Shown one piece after another: positions 17,005 through 29,567 of a stretch of DNA of 53,027 nt. Origin of the DNA: Thermoproteota archaeon (lineage in GTDB: Archaea > Thermoproteota > Thermoprotei_A > Sulfolobales > Pyrodictiaceae). Positions within the stretch are counted from its first letter, which is position 1; each line of letters begins with the position of its first letter. Where the stretch lies: the NCBI GenBank assembly GCA_013153145.1, contig JAADEY010000002.1, positions 1 to 53,027 on the forward strand, written 5' to 3'. Made by a program: the position numbers and the translations under genes. The notes below the pieces were generated by a model. It was not told the origin of the DNA. It searched no databases and saw only the letters and a program-made list of their open reading frames with translations.

Positions 17005-18690
17005 TTACCGCTTTTTCTCCATGAGCCTAACTATGACTGGTGAGGGGAGTCCATGCGTCTTTAGGATCCCATACCCCCTTGGCAGCTCGTGTAGTATCAG
17101 CTTGACCGCCTCAACCCTGTCCTCGACACGGTAGGCTGCCAGCAGTTTTGCCGTATACTCGAGGACCCGGGGCTCGGTGAGTGTGAGTGTTAGGATTGTG
17201 GCCGTGTTGTCTATGACCTCTCTTTCGAGGTCGAGCGGGCTCTGGGTGACTACTATGACTGCTACACCATACTTCCTCAGCTCCCTTACGAGCCTTGTTA
17301 GTGTTGTCTCGGTCTGCTGCCTTGCTCTGGGGTAGAATGTGTGTGCCTCGTCGACGACTATTATCTTCCGGATCCCCGTGGTTATGCCCTTGGAGGTGTA
17401 GTAGTGGTACAGTATTCGTAGGAGCGTGTCGACGTAGAGTGTTTTCGCTCCACGTGCTCCTATGCGGTGTAGGTCTATGACCACGTTCGATTCGACTATC
17501 TTCTCCATGGGTATTGTTTTTGCCCCGAGTTTCTCTAGGAAGTCCGTGACGTAGTAGTTTAGTGTCTCCGCGGACTTCCTGCCGGCCGCCGCCTCCTCAG
17601 CGATGTATCTTACAGCCTCGTTTAGTGTTGGCCACGCCGTCTCCTGGCCCTGGTAGGGTGTGTCCGGGTCCAACCCCTTGTCGATGTAGGCTGTTATGAT
17701 CGCGTTTTCCAGTATCGTTGCCTGGAGTGGGCCTATGGGGTATTGTGCCTTCATGAGCTCGACTATTTGCCTGGCCCTCCTCCTGGGGGTTTCGCCTTCT
17801 AGTAGCATGAGGGGGTTTAGGCCGTGCTGGGCCGCGTCTATGACCTCTACCCTTAGTCCGTACTTCTTGTAGAGCTCCTTGTACTCCCCGTGGGGGTCTA
17901 TGGCTAGTATTGTCGCCCTGTACTCTTTGGCCATCTTTGATGATAGTAGGGCTGCTGCGTGTGACTTGCCCGAGCCAGTTGATCCTATGATTGTTACATG
18001 GGGGTTTATTGAGCCGTGGTGGGGGTGGTGGTAGGTCGTGCCTGGTTGTAGGCGTAGCCACCACCATTTCGTCTTATGCCTTATCCTTGGAGCGTATCTT
18101 AGTGGTGGCTTGTAGGCTAGGATTGCCTCTGCTGGTGCTAGTGGTTTTTCTCCGTCTTCGACGAGGGGGGCTGTGTCGATTAGGAGTGATAGTGCGTAGG
18201 CGGGGGTTAGGGGTGCTGCTGCTATCGAGAGTATGTATGCTGCCGCGACGTGTAGTGGCGGCTTGCGGGGTGCTGCTGCGGTGGCTAGGACTGCTATGGG
18301 TGTTGCCATGAGTGCTACTGCTAGTGGTGGCTGCCTTGATGCCAGGAGTATTAGTGTCTCTGCCGCGATCCCTGTGGCTGCCAGTCTTAGTGATGGCCTC
18401 GGTGTTGTTAGCCTCTTTAGGGCTTCAATTAGGGGTTCTGTGCCGTTTGCCGCGCAGCTCCACGCGGCTGCGAGTATTGTTGCCGTTATCGATGCCGCTT
18501 GTATGGGTGTTGGCGTGTAGAGTATCGTTGTTATCGTTGCCGCGGCGACGATTATTGATGGTGACTCCACGGGTAGGAGGAGTAGTGATGGGGCTGTGAG
18601 TAAGGCTAGTAGGGGGGCTTCGTGGATCCCGAGTACTGGTAGGGTGAGGGCTAGGCAGGCTAGTAGGGCTGCTAGTAGCCGGGCTATCAT
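17005..18690 (-). CDS. membrane-anchored HerA/VirB4-like ATPase
   Basis: 561 aa, ATG start. The first ~180 residues are very hydrophobic and could form about six membrane helices. A cytoplasmic motor follows with Walker A GSTGSGKSHA near 236-245, the HerA-type AIDPHGEY near 263-270, Walker B KIIVVDEAHTF near 445 and sensor VVTQSPLDL near 480. HerA/VirB4/FtsK ATPases pump DNA or drive secretion; a membrane-anchored one next to a Ced-like locus is a good candidate for a DNA translocase. In Sulfolobus, CedB is described as membrane-bound, so this could be the true CedB orthologue or a second motor. It is divergent from the Lhr helicase with about 50 bases between. Confidence 0.88.
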   Translation of the reverse strand: MIARLLAALLACLALTLPVLGIHEAPLLALLTAPSLLLLPVESPSIIVAAATITTILYTPTPIQAASITATILAAAWSCAANGTEPLIEALKRLTTPRPSLRLAATGIAAETLILLASRQPPLAVALMATPIAVLATAAAPRKPPLHVAAAYILSIAAAPLTPAYALSLLIDTAPLVEDGEKPLAPAEAILAYKPPLRYAPRIRHKTKWWWLRLQPGTTYHHPHHGSINPHVTIIGSTGSGKSHAAALLSSKMAKEYRATILAIDPHGEYKELYKKYGLRVEVIDAAQHGLNPLMLLEGETPRRRARQIVELMKAQYPIGPLQATILENAIITAYIDKGLDPDTPYQGQETAWPTLNEAVRYIAEEAAAGRKSAETLNYYVTDFLEKLGAKTIPMEKIVESNVVIDLHRIGARGAKTLYVDTLLRILYHYYTSKGITTGIRKIIVVDEAHTFYPRARQQTETTLTRLVRELRKYGVAVIVVTQSPLDLEREVIDNTATILTLTLTEPRVLEYTAKLLAAYRVEDRVEAVKLILHELPRGYGILKTHGLPSPVIVRLMEKKR

Positions 18691-18740
18691 TAGTGCTTCC
18701 TTCCCGTCATAGCGTGCGTGGCGGGGGAGGGTGTTTACTG

Positions 18741-21524
18741 TTGCCCAGTGTCTTTGACATGCTTCATCCGAGGCTTAGGAGGCTGCTGCCTAGGTATGGG
18801 TATAGGGAGCCTACGCCTATCCAGCGTAGGGCTATACCGGTATTATTGAAGGGCTTCAACTGCCTGATAGTCGCCCCTACCGGGATGGGTAAGACGGAGG
18901 CTGCCGTCCTGCCCTTCCTCAGTAGGATGATTGAGGAGGGGGGTTCTGGGCTACGGTTGGTCTATATCACGCCGCTGCGTAGTCTTAATAGGGACTTGTT
19001 TCACAGGCTTGAGGGGCTTGCTTCTGAGCTTGGTTTTAGGCTTCTTGTCCGTCATGGTGATACCAGCCAGTCTGTTAGGCGTGCTTTTCTGCGGGAGCCT
19101 CCAGACGCGGCTATCATGACGCCGGAGGCGTTTTACTTTCTCCTCTCGGTGCCGCGTTTTAGGAGGATAGCTCGTAGTATTAGGTATGTGGTTATTGATG
19201 AGGTTCATGAGCTTGTTTATAGTGAGAGGGGTGTTGAGCTTGTTGCTGCTCTTGAGAGGCTGAGGAGGCTTACGGGTAGGAGGATTGTGCGTGCTGCTCT
19301 CTCGGCTACGGTTGCTGACCCGCTGGAGGTTGCCAGGTTAATCTCGCCGAGGGACTACATGGTTATCGTTGAGGATAGGGAGAGTAGGAGGGGGCTGAGG
19401 GTTAGTGTCGTCTCTCCCGAGCGTGATGAGTGCGGGTTTTCCGGCGTACTGGGTGTTCCTAGTGATGTTGCTGCGAGGGTCTGCTTCATTGCGAGGGTTG
19501 CTAGGGAGGCTGCGGGCGGCGTGCTCGTGTTCGCTAATACTAGGGATACCGCGGAGTACCTCGGTTCTTTGTTGAAGCGTGTGCTTGGTGATGATAGGGT
19601 TGCCGTGCATCATGGTAGTCTTAGTAGGAGGGAGAGGGTTGCTGCTGAGGAGGGTTTCCGCGAGGGTAGGATAAAGGTGCTTGTCGCTACTAGTAGTCTT
19701 GAGCTGGGCATAGATATTGGGTGGGTTGATGTTGTTATCCAGTATGCTTCTCCGAGGCAGGCTTTGAGGCTGTTGCAGAGGGTTGGCAGGTCGCGGCATA
19801 GGGTTGGCGGTGTCTCTGAGGGTTATGTTGTTAGCCTTGAGGGTGTCTATGATGTGCTTGAGTCTATTGTGCTTGCTAGGAGGACTATTGCTGGCGATCT
19901 AGAGAAGCCTACCGTGCCTATTAAGCCTCTTGATGCGCTGCTTCATCAGCTTGTCGGGATGGTTCTCGAGGAGGGGTGTATCGGTTTCATGGATGCTTAC
20001 TCGTTCTTCTCATCCCTCCCCTATTATAGGGGGTTGAGTGTTGAGGAGTTCAGTGGGCTTGTCGAGTACGCGGAGGCTGCGAGGATTCTCAGGGTTAGGG
20101 ATGATAGGATTTGTCCTGGTAGGAGGGCTAGGAGCTACTACTACTCTACAACGATGATACCCGATGAAGTCCACTATGTAGTTGTTGACGCTGCTTCGAG
20201 GGAGAAGGTTGGCGTCCTGGATGAGGAGTTTGCAGCGTCTCTCGAGGAGGGCGATGTCTTTGTCCTTGCTGGGAGGGTGTGGAGGGTTCTCGACGTGTCT
20301 GAGGGGAGGGTCTATGTCACGCCTGCTGAGGAGGGGGAGCTTGTCCTCCCGTCCTGGGAGGGCGATATGATACCGGTTGAGTATCTTGCTGCGAGGGAGA
20401 TGGGGAGCCTGGTTAGGAGGCTTGTTGAGGAGGGTGTTGATGCTGGTAGGCTTGCCGGGGTCTACCCCTGTGATAGGGGGTTGCTTGAGAAGGTTGCAGG
20501 CTTCTTCCGTGGCGTTGAGCCTCCCCCGACGGATAGGAGGATTGTTGTTGAGTCTTCCGGTGAGTTTGTCTTCGTCTATGGCTTCTTTGGGTCGAGGATT
20601 GCTAAGTCGTTTGAGTTGATGTTGAGGGGGCTTGTAGAGGAGATACTCGGCTTCCAGCCTGCGAGCTACTCCACGCCGTATGCGATACTGCTCCGCCTCA
20701 CTCGTGACTCTGCGCCACGCGTGGCCTCTGCTCTGCCGAGGCTGCTGCGCCGGCTGAGTAGGGAGGAGGCCCGTGGGCTTCTCGAGAAGGGGTTGAGGAG
20801 TAGTAGGCTGTTTGAGTGGAGGATGGGGCAGGTTGCAAGGAAGATGGGGGTTGTTGAGCCCGGTAAGCCCCTGGATCATCGCCTCCTCCGCAGCCTGCGC
20901 GACACAGTTATCGGCGTGGAGGCTGTGAGGGAGCTTGAGGCGTCGAGGCTCGATACCGGCGGCATGCTGCGCCTACTCGAGATGATTAGGGATGGTTCCA
21001 TCGAGATCATCTACCGTGGGCCAGGTGGCTCCGGGCTTGCGAAGGCGTTGATAGAGTCCACGCCCATCCTCCGCGCGGCCAGGACTGCCGCTATACCGTC
21101 GACGCTGCTCCCGGAGGTTTATCGCCGCAGGCTAGCCTCCCGGAGGGTTAGGTTGATCTGCCTCATGTGCATGCATACATGGGAGAGGAGGTTCGCCGAG
21201 ATAGAGGAGGAGCCTAGATGCCCGAAGTGCGGCTCGCGGTTCATAGCCCCACTCATAGGCGTCAGCGCCGAGGAGGCTGTGAGGATGCTTAGGAGGTACC
21301 GTGCCTCCAAGAAGGGTGCTGCGCGTAGATTGATAGAGCTCGGAAACCTAGTCCTAAGCTACGGCAAGAGGGTTATAGAGGCCCTGCTCGTCCCCGGCGT
21401 CGGGCCGGGTAATGTGAGGAGCATACTGAGCAAGCTGGTGCTCGGTGAGGAGGCCTACTATAAGGCGTTGATGGAGGCTGAGCAGAGGTTCCTGCGCACT
21501 AGGAGGTATTGGCAGCACAGGTGA
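18741..21524 (+). CDS. Lhr/Ski2-like superfamily 2 helicase with C-terminal zinc ribbon
   Basis: About 927 aa from TTG 18741 (GGCGGGGGAGGG upstream); an open frame reaches 18693. Motifs: GYREPTPIQRRAIP, Walker A APTGMGKTEAA, ITPLRSLNRDLF, DEVHEL, LSATVADP, VFANTRDTAEYL, ATSSLELGIDIG and QRVGRSRHR. The C-terminal part contains a zinc ribbon, CLMC...CPKC near residues 805-830 counted from 18741. Lhr proteins unwind RNA:DNA and DNA hybrids in repair; the Ski2-like ASH-Ski2 group acts in RNA decay. I cannot separate these by eye. It directly precedes the pilin-like gene (72 bases to its preferred start), so it may share transcription with the ced genes. Confidence 0.9.
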   Translation: MPSVFDMLHPRLRRLLPRYGYREPTPIQRRAIPVLLKGFNCLIVAPTGMGKTEAAVLPFLSRMIEEGGSGLRLVYITPLRSLNRDLFHRLEGLASELGFRLLVRHGDTSQSVRRAFLREPPDAAIMTPEAFYFLLSVPRFRRIARSIRYVVIDEVHELVYSERGVELVAALERLRRLTGRRIVRAALSATVADPLEVARLISPRDYMVIVEDRESRRGLRVSVVSPERDECGFSGVLGVPSDVAARVCFIARVAREAAGGVLVFANTRDTAEYLGSLLKRVLGDDRVAVHHGSLSRRERVAAEEGFREGRIKVLVATSSLELGIDIGWVDVVIQYASPRQALRLLQRVGRSRHRVGGVSEGYVVSLEGVYDVLESIVLARRTIAGDLEKPTVPIKPLDALLHQLVGMVLEEGCIGFMDAYSFFSSLPYYRGLSVEEFSGLVEYAEAARILRVRDDRICPGRRARSYYYSTTMIPDEVHYVVVDAASREKVGVLDEEFAASLEEGDVFVLAGRVWRVLDVSEGRVYVTPAEEGELVLPSWEGDMIPVEYLAAREMGSLVRRLVEEGVDAGRLAGVYPCDRGLLEKVAGFFRGVEPPPTDRRIVVESSGEFVFVYGFFGSRIAKSFELMLRGLVEEILGFQPASYSTPYAILLRLTRDSAPRVASALPRLLRRLSREEARGLLEKGLRSSRLFEWRMGQVARKMGVVEPGKPLDHRLLRSLRDTVIGVEAVRELEASRLDTGGMLRLLEMIRDGSIEIIYRGPGGSGLAKALIESTPILRAARTAAIPSTLLPEVYRRRLASRRVRLICLMCMHTWERRFAEIEEEPRCPKCGSRFIAPLIGVSAEEAVRMLRRYRASKKGAARRLIELGNLVLSYGKRVIEALLVPGVGPGNVRSILSKLVLGEEAYYKALMEAEQRFLRTRRYWQHR

Positions 21525-21595
21525 GGATTAGTTTCACTCAGCCCCCACATGCAGCCCATACCCTACGTTCCTCCAGGCTTCTGGGTGGCCAGGGG

Positions 21596-21859
21596 TTGGC
21601 GAGCGGTATAATCAACTTCATCACCGACCTCACAGTCAAGATAACGACGGCTGCGTGGGGCCTCTTCCTACTGACATGGAGTGTCGGCTGGCTGATAAGG
21701 GGCGCGCCGATACCGGTGCTTAGGTTCAAGAGGGTTGGCCAGAGCCTCATCGAGGACGCCGTCTGGGCTGCATTTGGACTCGCAATCGGAACCTCAGTCT
21801 TCGCATTGATAGCGTATATCGCCAAGCTCTTCGGCGCGACCCCGCCTAAGCCCCCCTAG
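21596..21859 (+). CDS. cedA1: CedA1-like two-helix pilin (VirB2/TrbC-type)
   Basis: 87 aa from TTG 21596, preceded by GGTGGCCAGGGG; an open frame extends back to 21509 but its first 29 residues look non-coding. The protein is two hydrophobic helices (about 14-34 and 52-78) joined by a short basic turn, RGAPIPVLRFKR, and ends in a Pro-rich tail. No cleavable signal peptide and no class III site. This matches the known plan of the Ced and Ted pilins, homologous to bacterial conjugative VirB2/TrbC pilins whose positively charged loop lines the lumen. The next gene is CedA. Assignment rests on topology, turn motif and context. Confidence 0.72.
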   Translation: MASGIINFITDLTVKITTAAWGLFLLTWSVGWLIRGAPIPVLRFKRVGQSLIEDAVWAAFGLAIGTSVFALIAYIAKLFGATPPKPP

Positions 21860-21899
21860 GCATGGGGCATGCACTGCAGTTGTTGTGAGGTAGCGGCGT

Positions 21900-23363
21900 A
21901 TGGCGGCGCCGACAGTAACCGAGATGACGATCGGCGACCTCCTCTACGCCGCGTTTCTGACGGCGATACTGACGTACCATATCGGTATACTCTTGTACGC
22001 AGTCCCCTACCCTAGTAGGTCTTTGAAACGCTGGGGCTACATACTGGTTAACGACGGGATCATGGCCGCCTTCCTCATAGCGCTCTATGGAGTTGTGGTC
22101 AAGATAGCTGACTATGTCCTGGCCGCTGCGGGGCTCAGCGTCAACAAGGGGATAACGATGATCAATGAGGCTTTGAATGCGGCTGCCATGGTTACGCTCG
22201 TTGCAAAGACTGTTGCAACTATAATCCCGTATCCCTTCAGCGGTGTTGTGAATAGCTTCCTAAGCCCCGTCATAATGTTTGCCAACGGTGTACTTGTCTC
22301 ATCCCTGCTAATGCTTGTAATAGGTGCTCTCGGCATCGAGGGGAAGCCCCTACTGGTGGCTGCCTCGGCGCTCCTCTATGCCCTACCCTTTAGGGCTGGG
22401 AGGAGTATTGGTGCGTCACTACTTGCATTCTCTATTGTGGCCCCGGTGGCTATAGCATTGTTTCCGTCCTGGTACTCGCTCTTCAATATACATGTCTATC
22501 TCGGGTACACGGAGAAGCCCTACCAGATGATAACCGTGCTGAAGCCCGTGGCCGGCGTCTGGGGGAATGTGACTGGGAGCTATGGTGTTATGAGTAGGGG
22601 CGTGCTAGTCTTCAGCGATGAGTCCGGTGGCAGGTTTGAGTTTAGGACGAGTATGGAGGGCGCCTACTATGCTCCGGAGACGCAGAGCGGCCTCCCAATG
22701 TATGTGAAGCTCCGTGTGTACGCGGAGCATCTGGGGCAAAGAATCCGTCTCGACCCCTCAGTGGTCGAGATACCCTTGACTAGTGAGGTTGATTTGAGTA
22801 AGCCTGGGATAGAGTATAGGCAGGACTTTAGGGCTGTTGACACTGTCTTCTACTCCTGCTACTTCAATGTAGTTACCTCACTCTGCCCCATAATAGGGGT
22901 TGACAAGGAGGGGAAGACGCTGATAGTCAAGTGTGTGCCGATATACAATGAGGCGTACGTGAATGTGTCGATGATACCCGATGCGACTGGGGACATCTAC
23001 ATGGCTGTCGGCGGGGGTAAGATCGTCGGCGGTATAAGGTGGTATAAGAAGGAGTGGAGGGGTATACCCGTTGAGGTTGACACATTCACCGTGCTTAGGA
23101 GCCCCAACCATGCATACATATCGATAAGCTTGACGCCGCAGCTTAAGGGTGACTGTAGGAGATATGTGCCGAGGATAAGTACGGGTAACTACATCAAGAC
23201 GTTGATTGACAGGATTGGGAGGATTCTCATGGACATGGTCTGGAACTATGTGAAGCTGATGGTTGCAATGGTAAGCTATGTGGCCGTGGTTGCTGCAAGC
23301 GTCTATGGCCTGGCGAGGGTGCTGGGTGCAACGTACCCGAGGCTCGTGGTGAGCCTGCCATGA
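21900..23363 (+). CDS. cedA: CedA-like polytopic DNA-import channel protein
   Basis: 487 aa, ATG start with GAGGT upstream. Six or so membrane helices occupy ~12-190, followed by a large probably extracytoplasmic domain of ~191-445 with four cysteines (C320, C328, C345, C419), and a final helix ~448-475. CedA of the crenarchaeal Ced system is the polytopic protein needed for DNA uptake and has been likened to VirB6. Helix pairs carry turns like that of the neighbouring pilin: PYPSRSLKRWG near 36-46, PYPFSG near 110-115 and a weaker LPFRAGRS near 162-169. Its stop overlaps the next small gene's ATG (CATGA). Confidence 0.75.
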   Translation: MAAPTVTEMTIGDLLYAAFLTAILTYHIGILLYAVPYPSRSLKRWGYILVNDGIMAAFLIALYGVVVKIADYVLAAAGLSVNKGITMINEALNAAAMVTLVAKTVATIIPYPFSGVVNSFLSPVIMFANGVLVSSLLMLVIGALGIEGKPLLVAASALLYALPFRAGRSIGASLLAFSIVAPVAIALFPSWYSLFNIHVYLGYTEKPYQMITVLKPVAGVWGNVTGSYGVMSRGVLVFSDESGGRFEFRTSMEGAYYAPETQSGLPMYVKLRVYAEHLGQRIRLDPSVVEIPLTSEVDLSKPGIEYRQDFRAVDTVFYSCYFNVVTSLCPIIGVDKEGKTLIVKCVPIYNEAYVNVSMIPDATGDIYMAVGGGKIVGGIRWYKKEWRGIPVEVDTFTVLRSPNHAYISISLTPQLKGDCRRYVPRISTGNYIKTLIDRIGRILMDMVWNYVKLMVAMVSYVAVVAASVYGLARVLGATYPRLVVSLP

Positions 23364-23536
23364 CGGGGCGGGAGCTCAAGCTTAGGGATACACTAGTGCT
23401 CGCAGCGGTACTAGAGGTTGCAATGATAATGCTTGGTGCGGGGAGCGGGGCGAGTGTGACGATCCTCGTACTTTTGCTCGCCTCCCTCCTACTCACACTG
23501 CTACTTGCATTCTACGCGTGGAGGGCAGGCCTGTGA
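23360..23536 (+). CDS. 58-aa two-helix membrane protein (VirB3/CedA2-like candidate)
   Basis: ATG at 23360 overlaps the cedA stop (ATGA), and its stop TGA at 23534-23536 overlaps the preferred GTG start of the next ATPase gene (GTGA). The product starts MTGRELKLRDTLVL and has two hydrophobic stretches (about 11-26 and 32-52) around a GAGSGAS turn, ending FYAWRAGL. Stop-start overlaps on both sides strongly suggest a real, translationally coupled gene. In conjugation systems a small two-helix VirB3 lies beside, or is fused to, VirB4; Sulfolobus Ced also has a small CedA2. Either match is inference from size, topology and position. Confidence 0.65.
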   Translation: MTGRELKLRDTLVLAAVLEVAMIMLGAGSGASVTILVLLLASLLLTLLLAFYAWRAGL

Positions 23537-25092
23537 GGCTCTTCGGCATCCTCTCGAGGGCCGCCAGGGTTAGGGGTGATGGCTGCTTCACCCGTGTAAA
23601 GGGCCTATGCTACGCCCTACTGGAGGTCGAGAACCCTGAGTGTATAGCGCGGCTGCTCTATGGAGAGATGAATATCCTCGAGTTCCTCATAGGGAGCTGC
23701 AATATGCGTGGACTGCTCCTATACATGGAGCCCCTTGATAGAAGCAAGGCTATGAGGAGCCTTGAGGCAAAGATGATGACATACCGTGTCATACTTGAGC
23801 GCAACCCGGACGACAAGACTGCCGAGGCTAGGCTCGAGATACTATCAAGGATGTATAAGAGGGTGGCGGAGGGCTACACGCCTCTAAAGGCTAGGTATGT
23901 CATAGTCATAGCAGACCCCGAGCCCTGCAGCGAGATAGAGAGGAGACTTGAGACGGCGAAACGCACCCTCGAGATCCATGGCTGCAGGTGCAGGGTTGTG
24001 TGCAGCGACCTCAACTCAGTACTGTCGAGGAGGGCTGAGGGCCCCCTCGACTCAATGACAGCCATAGATCCCCTAGTGACTATGTCGAGGAGGATTAGGA
24101 GCTACAGGGAGGGCGTATTCATAGGGAGAGATATGGATACTGGGCTGCCGATCTACCTCAACCTATGGGATGAGAGGAGGGGGGCTAACCACGTGTTAAT
24201 CGTCGGGCCGACGGGTAAGGGTAAGACAACACTGCTGGCCACCCTACTCGTGAGGCTCTATGCCCTGGACTCAACCCCGCTCACCGCTATAGACCCGAAG
24301 GGCGACCTCATAGACTCGTTGAAGAGCATCGGTGTAGCAGAGACCGTGGTCGACACCGGCATGGTTGCATCGATCCTTGGCCAGCTCTACAGAGAGGGTA
24401 CACCCATAAGCATGATCCTCGAGGCCGGGGTCGAGCTGACGGGGGCTGAGCGTAGGGCAATCGACGCCCTCCTCTTCTGCAAGGATACGACAGACCCCTA
24501 CGCCTCCTCGGCCGCCGTAAAGCTCCGCGTCATGGGGCTACCCGTGGAGAAGCTCTGCAGGGAACCAGGAGAACCCATCCCCCTGGGCGGGGGTAGGCTG
24601 GAAGCGTTCGACCTCAGCAGCCTAAGCAACCCCGTTAAGAACATCGCCGCCTCCGGCCTGCTAGCACTCATACATGCCATGTACTCGTCTGGATCCAGGA
24701 GGCCTAGGGGGCTTAGAAGGGTCATAGTTGTTGACGAGGCGTGGAGGGCCATGAAGATGCCGAAGGAGCTCCTCGAGAGACTAGTGAAGGAGTTTAGGAG
24801 CTACGGTGTCTCACTGGTCCTTGCCTCGCAGGATCCGGGCGACATACCCGACACCGCCTGGAACAACGCATCCCTCGTAGTAGTCTTCGGCTCGCACGAT
24901 AAGTCGTTCATAGAGCAGGTCGGCAGGGTGCTGAGGCTCACGGAGAGGGATCTTGAGAGGCTAAGATGGCTCCACATAGGCGAGGCCGCGTTAAAGCTTG
25001 CAGACGACCCCCGGCCGGTCTTCGTGAGGGTGGAGCCCGAGCCAGAAATAATTAAAGCAGGCACAGCTTCGCAGCATGTCCACGGGGTCTAG
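23533..25092 (+). CDS. cedB: CedB-like VirB4/HerA-type ATPase
   Basis: 519 aa. I prefer GTG 23533, overlapping the previous stop and preceded by GGAGGG; GTG 23518 is the longer option. The N-terminal ~190 residues, with several cysteines (for example HGCRCRVVC), resemble the VirB4/TraC adapter region. The motor shows Walker A GPTGKGKTT near 225-233, AIDPKGDL near 253-260, Walker B VIVVDEAWRAM near 400 and LASQDPGDI near 430. VirB4/HerA ATPases energise pilus assembly and DNA passage. The gene sits third behind the pilin in a tight operon. Its stop abuts the uL2 start codon with no spacing. Confidence 0.78.
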   Translation: MRLFGILSRAARVRGDGCFTRVKGLCYALLEVENPECIARLLYGEMNILEFLIGSCNMRGLLLYMEPLDRSKAMRSLEAKMMTYRVILERNPDDKTAEARLEILSRMYKRVAEGYTPLKARYVIVIADPEPCSEIERRLETAKRTLEIHGCRCRVVCSDLNSVLSRRAEGPLDSMTAIDPLVTMSRRIRSYREGVFIGRDMDTGLPIYLNLWDERRGANHVLIVGPTGKGKTTLLATLLVRLYALDSTPLTAIDPKGDLIDSLKSIGVAETVVDTGMVASILGQLYREGTPISMILEAGVELTGAERRAIDALLFCKDTTDPYASSAAVKLRVMGLPVEKLCREPGEPIPLGGGRLEAFDLSSLSNPVKNIAASGLLALIHAMYSSGSRRPRGLRRVIVVDEAWRAMKMPKELLERLVKEFRSYGVSLVLASQDPGDIPDTAWNNASLVVVFGSHDKSFIEQVGRVLRLTERDLERLRWLHIGEAALKLADDPRPVFVRVEPEPEIIKAGTASQHVHGV

Positions 25093-25809
25093 ATGGGTAA
25101 GAGGATACTGGCTCAGCGAATGGGTAGGGGTACATCGACGTTCCGCAGCAAGCCATGGCTACACCCGGCGCCGGCAAGATACCCGCCGCTAAGCAACGAG
25201 ACCCTACGCGGCAGGGTGGTCGAGCTCGTACACGACCCCGGACGCTGGACCCCACTGGCACACATAGTCCTCGAGAACGGCACAGAGTTCTGGATACCGG
25301 CCGTCGAGGGCATGTACAGGGGGCAGGTGATACAGGTAGGGCCCGAGGCCAGGCCCGGCAACGGCTGCATACTACCACTCGGCAAGATACCCGAGGGAAC
25401 ACAGGTCTGCAACCTGGAGGTTAGGCCGGGCGACGGAGGCAAGCTCGCGAGGGCGCCCGGCACATACGCGCTCGTACTAGGGAGGAGCGGAAACCGCACC
25501 CTAGTACAGCTGCCAAGCGGCAAGATAAGGGAGCTGCCGAACACGTGCAGGGCAACCATAGGAGTTGTTGCGGGAGGCGGCAGGCTCGAGAAGCCCCTAC
25601 TGAAGGCCGGCGCCGCATACTACAAGTGGAGCGCCAAGGCGAAGAAGTGGCCGCGCGTGAGGGGAGTAGCGATGAACGCCGTCGACCACCCACACGGCGG
25701 AGGAAGGCACCAGAGCCCAGGATTCCCGACAACTGTGTCGAGGAACGCACCACCAGGCCAGAAGGTTGGACATATAGCCGCCCGTACAACCGGCCGCAGG
25801 AAGAGGTGA
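25093..25809 (+). CDS. rpl2: 50S ribosomal protein uL2
   Basis: 238 aa, ATG directly after the cedB stop. uL2 helps form the peptidyl transferase centre and intersubunit bridge. The family core is present: NGCILPLGKIPEGTQVCNLE, ARAPGTYALV, PSGKIRELPNTCRATIG and the invariant C-terminal NAVDHPHGGGRH. It normally lies between uL23 and uL22; here it is about 8 kb upstream, behind the ced genes. A 6-base gap separates it from uS19. Confidence 0.98.
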   Translation: MGKRILAQRMGRGTSTFRSKPWLHPAPARYPPLSNETLRGRVVELVHDPGRWTPLAHIVLENGTEFWIPAVEGMYRGQVIQVGPEARPGNGCILPLGKIPEGTQVCNLEVRPGDGGKLARAPGTYALVLGRSGNRTLVQLPSGKIRELPNTCRATIGVVAGGGRLEKPLLKAGAAYYKWSAKAKKWPRVRGVAMNAVDHPHGGGRHQSPGFPTTVSRNAPPGQKVGHIAARTTGRRKR

Positions 25810-26288: not shown

Positions 26289-28172
26289 CTATGCAAGGAG
26301 CCTCTTCAACCCCTTTGCAAGCTCCTCAACACTACCCGCCACAAGCACCCTGGCAAACCCCCTCACAGCCCTCAAGACGTTTTCATCAACGCTTGGTGGA
26401 GCTACTATAAACAGCCTCCACCCCCTCCCATGAAGCTTTCTCAACGCCTCAGCAACCCCCTCCTCCGACACGACAGTCTGCCGGAGATCAGATCCCAGCA
26501 CAAGCCTTGAAGCCGGGAGCCCACGGGAAGCCTCAGCAAGCGCCGAGACGACGTCGGTATACCCCTCAAACCTCACACCTAGGCTGAAGAGCTCAGCGAA
26601 AACCCTGCCAGCCACCGCCTCGCCGTCAAACACCCTCACATCCTGGTCGAAGACGACGAGCCTCCTCAGCGAGCCCGAGAAGGCGTAGGCGGCCAGGAGG
26701 GCCACGAGAGAATACTCCCTCATACTACCACTCTTATCGAGAAGCAGGACCACGCTCCTCCGCCTACGCGGCACACGATAAACCGGGCACCCCCTCATAG
26801 ACACAAGGCTCCTAACACTACGCCTCACATCAAGCCTCGCGCCAGGAGCCCTCGACGCGGAATAGTAGTAGCCCTGCACACCCCTACAGCCATAATACCT
26901 GTACAACAGCCTATGCAGCACCATCCTCATCAACCGCCTGGCAACACCCCTCAGCCTAGGATCCCTCGAAACACCCCCAACGGCCGAGACAAGCCCCTCA
27001 AGGCTAAGCATCCCCCTAACATGCATCCTAGTCAACACGTCAACCAGCTCCTCCACACAAGAACCCTTGGAGAGGAAGCAGTCAACAGCACCAACCAGCA
27101 AGCCGACTAGACCACCGCCCCCAGCCTTCTCGAGCTCCGAATACGCCATGTCAACATAGCCCCTATTACCCGTCTCAAGCCCCCTCAACGCATACACCAG
27201 TGCCCTCGCAAGCCTACCAGTACCAGCAACATCCAGCGGCACACCACCAACACTAACACCACGCCTCTCCAGCTCAGAGACAATCCTACCAATGGCACGC
27301 GGGTTCCTAGCACGGGAGAGGAGGGATTCAAGCCCCTCAACACTCAACCCCATACGCTCAACAAGCCTCGGCTCCTCATCAACAAGGCGCGCAGCAACAA
27401 CGCCATCAACAAGGCCCATGCGCCTAAGAACACGGTAAACCCTATCAGCATCAAACCCCCTCTCACCACGTGCAACCCTCTCACGAAGCCTCGCAGCGGC
27501 ACGCCTAGCCAGGCCATACTCGCCGACCTTGAGCGCAGACTCGACAAGGCCGGCAAGACCATCAATACTAACCCTATCGAAGACTGCCTCCGGAAACTCC
27601 CTGCCCAGCAGGGCAGAGACCCCACCACCACGCTCGACATCCCTAACAACAGCCTCCTCAAGAGCAGACTCAAGGCTACCATAACGCCTCACAAGCCTCT
27701 CAACCCTCCCACGCGCGGCACGCCTACCAAGAATCCTCCAGCCACGCTTCCCCCTAACCATCAGCCCAAGCAGCCTCAGCCTGGCATACGCAGCCCTACC
27801 ACCCTCCCCGAGCCTCCAGGGAGGAGCCACCCCGCCGCCAAACCTAGAGCCGACGGCAGCCATATCATGCCTAACAGCCTCAAAAGCATCCCTCCCATGC
27901 CCCGTCAATCCCTCGACAACCCTACGGAGAGCCTCGACACCCTCATCATCCTTCACGAGCGTCGAAGAGAGAACATAGAACAACTCCCTGGGATCGGGCG
28001 AGCAGGGGTCGAGGCCGCGCACCGCGACATACGACTCCAAGACCTCCACCGACTCGATCACAGCCGACGTCGGAACCCTGACACCACGCGCCCTAAGCGC
28101 CTCAGCAACAGCAACCACGAGGTCAGCGATACACGAGTCAGAGCTGCTCCTCGAGAACCGCGTCGACGACAT
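26289..28172 (-). CDS. CoxE-like VWA-domain protein
   Basis: About 627 aa from ATG 28172; GTG 28118 is a shorter option. The N-terminal ~400 residues are helical and Arg/Leu-rich. The C-terminal ~190 form a von Willebrand A domain whose metal site begins LLLDKSGSMRE (DxSxS), with a later GYTDVVSAL threonine region and VLGSDLRQ. The preceding gene encodes a MoxR-type AAA+ ATPase; MoxR-VWA pairs act as chaperones that insert metals or remodel partner proteins. Partner unknown here. The coding strand is strongly G/T rich. It overlaps moxR by 35 bases from ATG 28172; GTG 28118 would remove the overlap. Confidence 0.88.
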   Translation of the reverse strand: MSSTRFSRSSSDSCIADLVVAVAEALRARGVRVPTSAVIESVEVLESYVAVRGLDPCSPDPRELFYVLSSTLVKDDEGVEALRRVVEGLTGHGRDAFEAVRHDMAAVGSRFGGGVAPPWRLGEGGRAAYARLRLLGLMVRGKRGWRILGRRAARGRVERLVRRYGSLESALEEAVVRDVERGGGVSALLGREFPEAVFDRVSIDGLAGLVESALKVGEYGLARRAAARLRERVARGERGFDADRVYRVLRRMGLVDGVVAARLVDEEPRLVERMGLSVEGLESLLSRARNPRAIGRIVSELERRGVSVGGVPLDVAGTGRLARALVYALRGLETGNRGYVDMAYSELEKAGGGGLVGLLVGAVDCFLSKGSCVEELVDVLTRMHVRGMLSLEGLVSAVGGVSRDPRLRGVARRLMRMVLHRLLYRYYGCRGVQGYYYSASRAPGARLDVRRSVRSLVSMRGCPVYRVPRRRRSVVLLLDKSGSMREYSLVALLAAYAFSGSLRRLVVFDQDVRVFDGEAVAGRVFAELFSLGVRFEGYTDVVSALAEASRGLPASRLVLGSDLRQTVVSEEGVAEALRKLHGRGWRLFIVAPPSVDENVLRAVRGFARVLVAGSVEELAKGLKRLLA

Positions 28173-29106
28173 CCTCCTCACCAACCCTCTTATAGAGCAC
28201 AATGCTAGCCGCATCGATCAAGTCACGCCTAGTAACCCTGGAATCACCACGAAGCCTCGCAAGCCTCGCAGCTATACGCGCCCAGAGCACAGTGTCAGCC
28301 GGCCCAGGCTTATAGACAGCCCTCCTCCTAAGCTCGCCCACAACCCTCAACATCGCCGAGAGAAGCTCGTCGGGGAGCTCAACGTCAACATCAAGCCTAA
28401 GCCTGACTATCTCCCTCTCAACACTGGGCGGGGGATAGTCAAACCTAACCCTCACAACCCTCCTGAGAAAAGCATCGCTCAGCTCGCCCTGCGCTATATC
28501 CTCCGGGTTGCTCGTGAATATGAACTGGAAGCCTATCCCCCGGGCCCGGAACACCCTCTTAATCTCCGGGACGATTATCCTCCGCTTATCAATGACGTCA
28601 AGGAGGAGGTTCTGGAACTCCTCACTACTCCTCCTAATCTCATCAACCAACACACCAGCATCAAGTATCAACGCCGCAAGGAGGGGGCGTGGTATGAAGC
28701 TCTTCTCGTTGAAGCCGAGCCTCATAGCCATCAAGGGGTGGAAGTCCCCAATAACCCTATACTCGTCGTATCCACTACTACACGGTATAACGAAGGCAGT
28801 CTTCCCAGCCCAGAGGCTGAGAATAGCCTCCCCGATCTCAGTCTTACCAGTACCAGGGGGGCCCTCAAACAACACCGGCCTACCCGCCAGGAACGCTGCA
28901 ACAACAAGCGACACAAGCCTCTCATCAACCACAAGCCTATACTCGCTACGGAGCAGCCTAACCATCTCCCTCGGATTCCTAACCGGCTCCCTAACCTCCA
29001 CAACCCCTCCATAGATCCTCTTAACCTTCTCCTCAACGGTCTCCCCGACCTCCTCCCCAGCACCCAAACCCTCACCAGTAAGCCCCACCGGCTCGACCAT
29101 CACCAT
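28138..29106 (-). CDS. MoxR-family AAA+ ATPase
   Basis: 322 aa from ATG 29106, which is preceded by AGGGTGG and lies just inside a TATA-predicted transcription start; an open frame extends to 29163. Motifs: Walker A EGPPGTGKTE, Walker B LVDEIRRSSEEF, sensor 1 FIFTSNPED and sensor 2-like FLRRVVRVRFDYP. MoxR ATPases work with VWA partners, and the VWA gene overlaps the 3' end here. The order MoxR then VWA is the standard one. Confidence 0.92.
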   Translation of the reverse strand: MVMVEPVGLTGEGLGAGEEVGETVEEKVKRIYGGVVEVREPVRNPREMVRLLRSEYRLVVDERLVSLVVAAFLAGRPVLFEGPPGTGKTEIGEAILSLWAGKTAFVIPCSSGYDEYRVIGDFHPLMAMRLGFNEKSFIPRPLLAALILDAGVLVDEIRRSSEEFQNLLLDVIDKRRIIVPEIKRVFRARGIGFQFIFTSNPEDIAQGELSDAFLRRVVRVRFDYPPPSVEREIVRLRLDVDVELPDELLSAMLRVVGELRRRAVYKPGPADTVLWARIAARLARLRGDSRVTRRDLIDAASIVLYKRVGEEDVVDAVLEEQL

Positions 29107-29135
29107 GCTCCACCCTAACACTATAACCCGCACAC

Positions 29136-29145
29136 CCTTATAGAG
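29136..29145 (-). promoter_or_regulatory. TATA box for the moxR-VWA operon
   Basis: Minus-strand TCTATAAGGG about 30 bases before ATG 29106 predicts a near-leaderless transcript and supports that start over the longer frame. The same AT box could also act in the plus direction for the gene at 29163. Confidence 0.5.
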
Positions 29146-29162
29146 ACCCTGGGCATGGGGCA

Positions 29163-29567
29163 ATGGACGTCATATACAGCGTTAAGCTGAGGAGGGGGCC
29201 CGACACACTACACTACGACCTATACTTCACTGATGAAGCACTGGAGCTACGCTACCTAGGCGAGTACTGGGACGCTACAAGACCGGTAACCGGTATACAG
29301 CGGAGGGCAGACCTCCTCATCTACTCAATACACAAGAAGCGCAGGAGGAGCACGGGCACCGGCTCGAGAGAGGACATAACCATACCATACAGCGATATCA
29401 AGACGATACGGCTCACAAGGGACAGGGAGGATCCAAGGATAGCACGGATAATACTCGAGACGAAGAGGGGGGAGAGACTGGAGCTCGAATTCGCCTCAAA
29501 ACTCTATAGGCTCGCACAGAGACTCATAAACCGCCACGTCAAGCCAAGGATGGGGGCTAGGCGGTGA
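29163..29567 (+). CDS. unknown 134-aa beta-rich protein
   Basis: ATG start. The strand-rich N-terminus (VIYSVKLRRGPDTLHYDLYFTDEALELRYLG) and a later section (ITIPYSDIKTIRLTRD...IARIILETKRGERLELEF), ending in a helix (YRLAQRLINRH), are reminiscent of small PH-like or bPH domains. Basic overall, no cysteines, no membrane helix. Divergent from moxR with 56 bases between. No confident family. Confidence 0.75.
   Translation: MDVIYSVKLRRGPDTLHYDLYFTDEALELRYLGEYWDATRPVTGIQRRADLLIYSIHKKRRRSTGTGSREDITIPYSDIKTIRLTRDREDPRIARIILETKRGERLELEFASKLYRLAQRLINRHVKPRMGARR

Follow-up and report, generated by a model that had tools for sequence, protein, structure and literature searches.

The Ced system is one of the few known routes by which chromosomal DNA is exchanged through a host-owned conjugation machine. 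A Ced locus lies in a 53,027-nucleotide (nt) stretch of DNA from a Thermoproteota archaeon of the family Pyrodictiaceae (contig JAADEY010000002.1), termed the window below. As judged by homology and predicted structures, it is a chromosomal four-gene operon located at 21596-25092 on the plus strand and comprising cedA1, cedA, a gene for a two-helix protein of 58 amino acids (aa) and cedB. All four open reading frames (ORFs) are present. As a system, Ced is an already known, widespread machine and ordinary here. Data on synteny, promoters and predicted folds now extend it to hyperthermophiles from hydrothermal vents. Points beyond published Ced accounts are an outer domain of CedA and, as leads, an ANTTTC element common to ced and radA and a hairpin gene that follows cedA in most lineages and is tied to a transmembrane helix of CedB. 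Both leads are testable.

The source genome has a size of 1.19 Mb, is 79% complete and comprises 47 contigs. The nearest relative found is a metagenome-assembled Pyrodictium genome. Within the operon, the cedA stop codon overlaps the ATG of the 58-aa gene (ATGA, 23360-23363), and the stop codon of the latter overlaps the likeliest cedB start (GTGA, 23533-23536). The gene for ribosomal protein L2, rpl2 (25093-25809, plus strand), begins with the first base after the cedB end and is the 3' neighbour outside Ced. These coordinates agree with the original prediction, which had seen four linked genes beside ribosomal genes with overlaps at the last two junctions. Its proposal of a Ced-type set including a VirB4/HerA ATPase was also borne out, but the additional domain of CedA and the placement of the 58-aa gene in the slot of cedA2 had both escaped it. 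Linkage and homology suggest that all four gene products belong to a single apparatus.

Components of the operon and their assignment

cedA1 (21596-21859, plus strand) encodes a conjugation-type, VirB2-like two-helix pilin of 87 aa. Its TTG start codon at 21596 is backed by the alignment, in which no leader precedes the pilin helix. With 116.6 bits, CedA1 passes the equivalog cut-off of 100 of NF041797. It aligns co-linearly (E 6e-26) with the pilin of Aeropyrum pernix solved by cryo-electron microscopy (8dfu), which is likewise devoid of a cleaved leader, and by this homology CedA1 is predicted to have the same fold. cedA (21900-23363, plus strand) encodes a long form, 487 aa, of the putative membrane channel protein. 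Its best family is NF041796 (95.5 bits; cut-off 330; profile of 259 positions), which covers residues 10-200 only. In addition, the CedA N-terminus matches the CedA1 pilin profile (E 2.4e-7). A pilin-like N-terminus of CedA has already been published (PMC9905601).

cedB (23533-25092, plus strand) encodes a VirB4/HerA-type ATPase of 519 aa when read from the GTG at 23533; an upstream GTG at 23518 is a possible alternative start. NF041017 is its best NCBIfam match (139 bits, E 2e-40; cut-off 700). The Walker A motif GPTGKGKT (24205-24228, plus strand) falls into near-invariant alignment columns, and both Walker A and DEAW are conserved. The AlphaFold2 model of CedB has a mean predicted local distance difference test score (pLDDT) of 86.8. 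In a Foldseek search of the PDB, the top nine matches of this model were TrwK/VirB4 of the bacterial R388 type IV secretion system (best E 7e-19), with HerA ranking behind them; the VirB4 match extends over the length of the protein. The identity as Ced system follows from the cut-off passed by CedA1 and its match to 8dfu, the R388 VirB4 fold of CedB and the match of the CedA N-terminus. Genes resembling VirB8, VirB10 or the outer-membrane core of the R388 system were not seen in the window system.

A CedD candidate is encoded elsewhere in the genome (ORF on G000:C8; 158 bits, best family, cut-off 600). CedB and CedD have been reported to co-occur (PMC11868833). At the locus of the cedD candidate (L014, 5907-7469 and 9266-10513), an Orc1/Cdc6 gene lies at a distance of about 2 kb. 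The genome of the window further contains a HerA-Mre11-Rad50 operon.

The system shares with Ced of Sulfolobus and Saccharolobus the CedA1, CedA, CedB and CedD homologues and a gene for two transmembrane helices after cedA; it differs from them in that cedB belongs to the same operon. A CedE paralogue was not seen in the 79% complete assembly, which contains one CedA-family match besides the pilin. Ted of the Thermoproteales has a similar set of VirB2-, VirB6- and VirB4-like proteins, often with HerA-like genes nearby, but the published Ted proteins have no recognisable sequence similarity to Ced. In the profile searches, the pilin and the ATPase of the window fell to CedA1 and CedB and not to Ted with its TedB and its TedC-type pilin carrying a signal peptide. 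An order-wide search detected CedA in 160 of the 197 genomes covered. The pair of cedA1 and cedA is likewise widespread in the order, with conserved gene order, and the block is kept across Pyrodictiaceae and related families. Both checks proposed with the original prediction, by profiles and by synteny, thus speak in its favour.

The long CedA and the hairpin gene in the cedA2 slot

The AlphaFold2 model of CedA was built from an alignment of 71 full-length relatives and has a mean pLDDT of 92.8. It comprises an N-terminal half made up of helices (residues 11-202), followed by a beta domain (residues 217-416; 22548-23147, plus strand) and a 44-residue C-terminal helix (residues 431-474; 23190-23321, plus strand). 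According to hydropathy and model, several transmembrane helices are located in the N-terminal half and one more at the C-terminus, where the long helix is the predicted last membrane anchor. The beta domain is defined by the secondary structure of the model and probably consists of two tandem immunoglobulin (Ig)-like sandwiches; its weak, non-significant PDB matches are mostly antibody-type two-domain Ig folds. The positive-inside pattern and several cysteines suggest that the domain is located outside the cell.

CedA of Sulfolobus and Saccharolobus comprises about 260 aa, in contrast to the 487 aa with an outer beta domain found here. In the order-wide search, short CedA proteins (open frames of about 250-350 aa) belonged to family f11, which includes Sulfolobaceae. 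Outside f11, nearly all frames had 440-580 aa, i.e. the long form is the rule there. Term searches of open papers on Ced gave no mention of the outer domain.

The 58-aa gene (23360-23536, plus strand) encodes a predicted hairpin of two transmembrane helices and is, by position, size and helices, a CedA2-like or VirB3-like candidate. It occupies the slot after cedA, the position of cedA2 in Sulfolobaceae. In six Sulfolobaceae loci (L104, L105, L115, L116, L191, L197), a gene for two transmembrane helices is located in this slot. The comparison covered 89 distinct loci in which the end of cedA is intact. In 55 of these loci, an ORF of 38-80 aa with at least one transmembrane helix started at the cedA stop codon, and in 50 of the 55 it encoded two helices. 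After other genes of the same loci, a two-helix mini-ORF was found in 1 of 590 cases. Together with the CedA1 score and the recurrence of the cedA1-cedA pair, this contrast places the operon well outside what chance would produce. In close pairs, the rate of non-synonymous substitutions was lower than that of synonymous ones (e.g. 0.03 vs 0.24). Therefore, the 58-aa gene is considered real but fast-evolving.

In a profile comparison, the small hairpins of the Desulfurococcaceae-type group and of family f2 joined the Sulfolobaceae CedA2-slot group with probabilities of 81 and 78, values that may be inflated by hydrophobic composition alone. A single family for all small hairpins was rejected, as the Pyrodictiaceae group remained unjoined. 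CedA2 has been reported as not conserved and as absent in A. pernix, whose Ced differs in this respect from the window with its gene in the CedA2 slot. These statements fit the Acidilobaceae-type loci, which carry no small gene, but not most other lineages. The impression that CedA2 is a peculiarity of a few species is thereby corrected.

Two roles can be envisaged for the 58-aa protein, and either is a possibility that is held only tentatively. It might be a VirB3-type coupling hairpin that holds CedB to CedA and is elsewhere replaced by a transmembrane helix of CedB. The gene sits, with overlapping stop and start codons, between a VirB6-like and a VirB4-like gene, and among 57 loci in which cedB adjoins cedA, an N-terminal transmembrane helix of CedB was found in 27 of 28 loci that lack the small gene and in 11 of 29 that have it (p 2e-6 in a Fisher test, an overstated value, since the association is clumped by phylogeny). 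This clumping speaks against a VirB3-type role as well, as do the single helix of CedB compared to two in the small protein and the coexistence of both features in several Pyrodictiaceae. The latter also weakens a simple split or fusion model, in which the 58-aa gene would be a detached CedB helix. Likeness to VirB3 of R388 is positional only: The VirB3 profile did not match the window protein and gave E 0.94 with one relative, and a PDB match was not obtained. With a similarly modest chance, the 58-aa protein could join CedA1 in the assembly as another pilin-like or lumen subunit, a role already suggested for Sulfolobus CedA2. In favour of such a subunit, S. acidocaldarius CedA2 has been described as part of a membrane complex that also contains CedA and CedA1 (PMC9905601), and both CedA1 and the 58-aa protein have two helices. 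However, profile searches revealed no sequence similarity between the two proteins, the small gene evolves much faster than CedA1, and the A. pernix pilus structure is composed of CedA1 only.

The ANTTTC element and the proposed mode of action

A copy of the damage-response hexamer ANTTTC, AGTTTC, is located at 21530-21535 on the plus strand, 66 nt 5' of the cedA1 start and directly after the lhr stop codon. ANTTTC is required for UV-induced ups promoters (PMC5817253) and is bound by Orc1-2 (PMC9738581). The genome of the window contains two Orc1/Cdc6 genes. ANTTTC was counted at -70 to -41 on the sense strand after removal of near-identical loci and with fixed start codons, since a looser count might include coding bases (the Ser-Phe codons AGT TTC). 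It was present in 26 of 72 non-redundant cedA1 upstream regions, and the carriers belong to several families. By comparison, 200 shuffling runs yielded a mean of 2.7 and a maximum of 8. On the opposite strand the count was 4, and among 533 other genes it was 10.

In the 1.19 Mb genome, there are four copies of the extended form GAWTASTTTCR, one of which is in the cedA1 promoter. A further copy lies about 70 nt 5' of radA (L203, motif at 1501; G000:C12:44672-44682), where GAATAGTTTCG is followed by TATATAAG. The same element is found upstream of radA in four other family members, and across the order ANTTTC precedes radA in 10 of 30 cases (shuffles: mean 1.0, maximum 5). As the ced promoter carries ANTTTC like the radA promoter, DNA damage probably induces ced. 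This leads to the prediction that ced and radA respond jointly to DNA damage. If true, a ced-radA regulon would couple the import of DNA to its use in repair.

Another copy of GAWTASTTTCR is located 29 nt 5' of a 154-aa ORF (L205, motif at 1501; G000:C37:7556-7566). The encoded protein may be thioredoxin-like and is a possible further member of the regulon. Moreover, the homology to radA starts only at residue 117-118 in frames of 470-864 aa in a set of genomes (G004, G008, G010, G019, G026, G036, G040, G045, G048, G053). This suggests inteins in radA of several families of the order.

The whole is best explained, with high confidence, as a domesticated chromosomal type IV secretion machine that probably imports DNA from neighbouring cells via a CedA1 pilus. 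CedA1 subunits would assemble into a hollow pilus and CedA would form the membrane channel. The outer domain of CedA probably contacts the pilus base, the surface layer (S-layer) or the partner cell. Probably part of the membrane platform, the 58-aa hairpin may dock soluble CedB under the channel in a manner comparable to VirB3 and VirB4. CedB together with CedD, which is encoded elsewhere, would drive the DNA through the CedA channel, and imported DNA is probably then used by RadA in recombination repair. The identity and linkage of the genes, their predicted folds and the motif enrichment were established in the present analysis. Pilus, DNA transport and inward direction probably apply by analogy, as they are carried over from work on Sulfolobus, Saccharolobus and Aeropyrum. 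A wider picture, in which Ced outside Sulfolobaceae is a fuller, damage-regulated system with a CedA Ig-like domain for the partner or the S-layer, a CedA2 hairpin as replaceable VirB3-type link and an ancestral ced-radA ANTTTC regulon, is put forward as speculative.

Several observations weigh against the main interpretation as a Ced import machine. The scores of CedA and CedB fall well short of the respective equivalog cut-offs, which appear to be fitted to Sulfolobaceae-like sequences. The fold match between CedB and VirB4 is partial (TM-score 0.54 on the query), and a PDB search with the whole CedA model gave nothing below E 0.001 and no match to VirB6. For the 58-aa protein, no significant match was obtained in Pfam, NCBIfam or the PDB, and the Pyrodictiaceae small-hairpin group reached a profile probability of 10.5 with the Sulfolobaceae CedA2-slot group. 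Furthermore, many lineages have no ANTTTC upstream of cedA1, and the S. acidocaldarius ced loci were stated to be devoid of it (PMC5817253), in contrast to the window with its copy upstream of cedA1.

Other functions of the operon have to be considered. As bacterial VirB4 and VirB2 homologues serve export, it might be a DNA exporter like those in plasmid conjugation. In Sa. islandicus, loss of CedA1 also cuts export by about half, but loss of CedA or CedB reduces import only (PMC11868833). In addition, profile searches identified no relaxase-like or VirD4-like gene among the operon genes, and export is regarded as improbable. Even further from expectation is an integrated conjugative element instead of a host system. 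Type IV secretion genes are usually the property of mobile elements, but here the block is located inside a ribosomal protein cluster with the same neighbours across families, and the occurrence of CedA in most genomes of the order points in the same direction.

Neighbouring genes

Upstream of cedA1, a gene for an Lhr-type helicase (18693-21524, plus strand; Pfam DEAD, DEAD_assoc, WH_Lhr) is the conserved neighbour. It is preceded by a conserved divergent gene (17005-18690, minus strand) encoding an ATPase of the HerA family, designated TM-HerA, for which about four transmembrane helices are predicted near the N-terminus. The usual order in Pyrodictiaceae is TM-HerA (divergent), lhr, cedA1, cedA, the small gene, cedB, rpl2 and rps19; pcna frequently lies on the far side, and parts of this order are kept in other families. 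In Pyrodictiaceae loci as well as in those of the Ignisphaera-like and Desulfurococcaceae types, lhr is located directly 5' of cedA1. At least four families keep TM-HerA at a distance of no more than 8 kb from cedA1; in one locus (L088) it abuts cedA1 directly, without lhr.

TM-HerA could be an unrecognised DNA pump. Its evaluation as a co-occurring Ced component was abandoned, as HerA paralogues blur the signal, and synteny alone is claimed. Since a conserved arrangement says little about shared function when ribosomal genes are close by, lhr and TM-HerA are ranked as neighbours only. On the other side, at 26289-29163 on the minus strand, genes for a VWA (CoxE-like) protein and a MoxR/AAA_5 ATPase adjoin the ribosomal cluster and are conserved in relatives.

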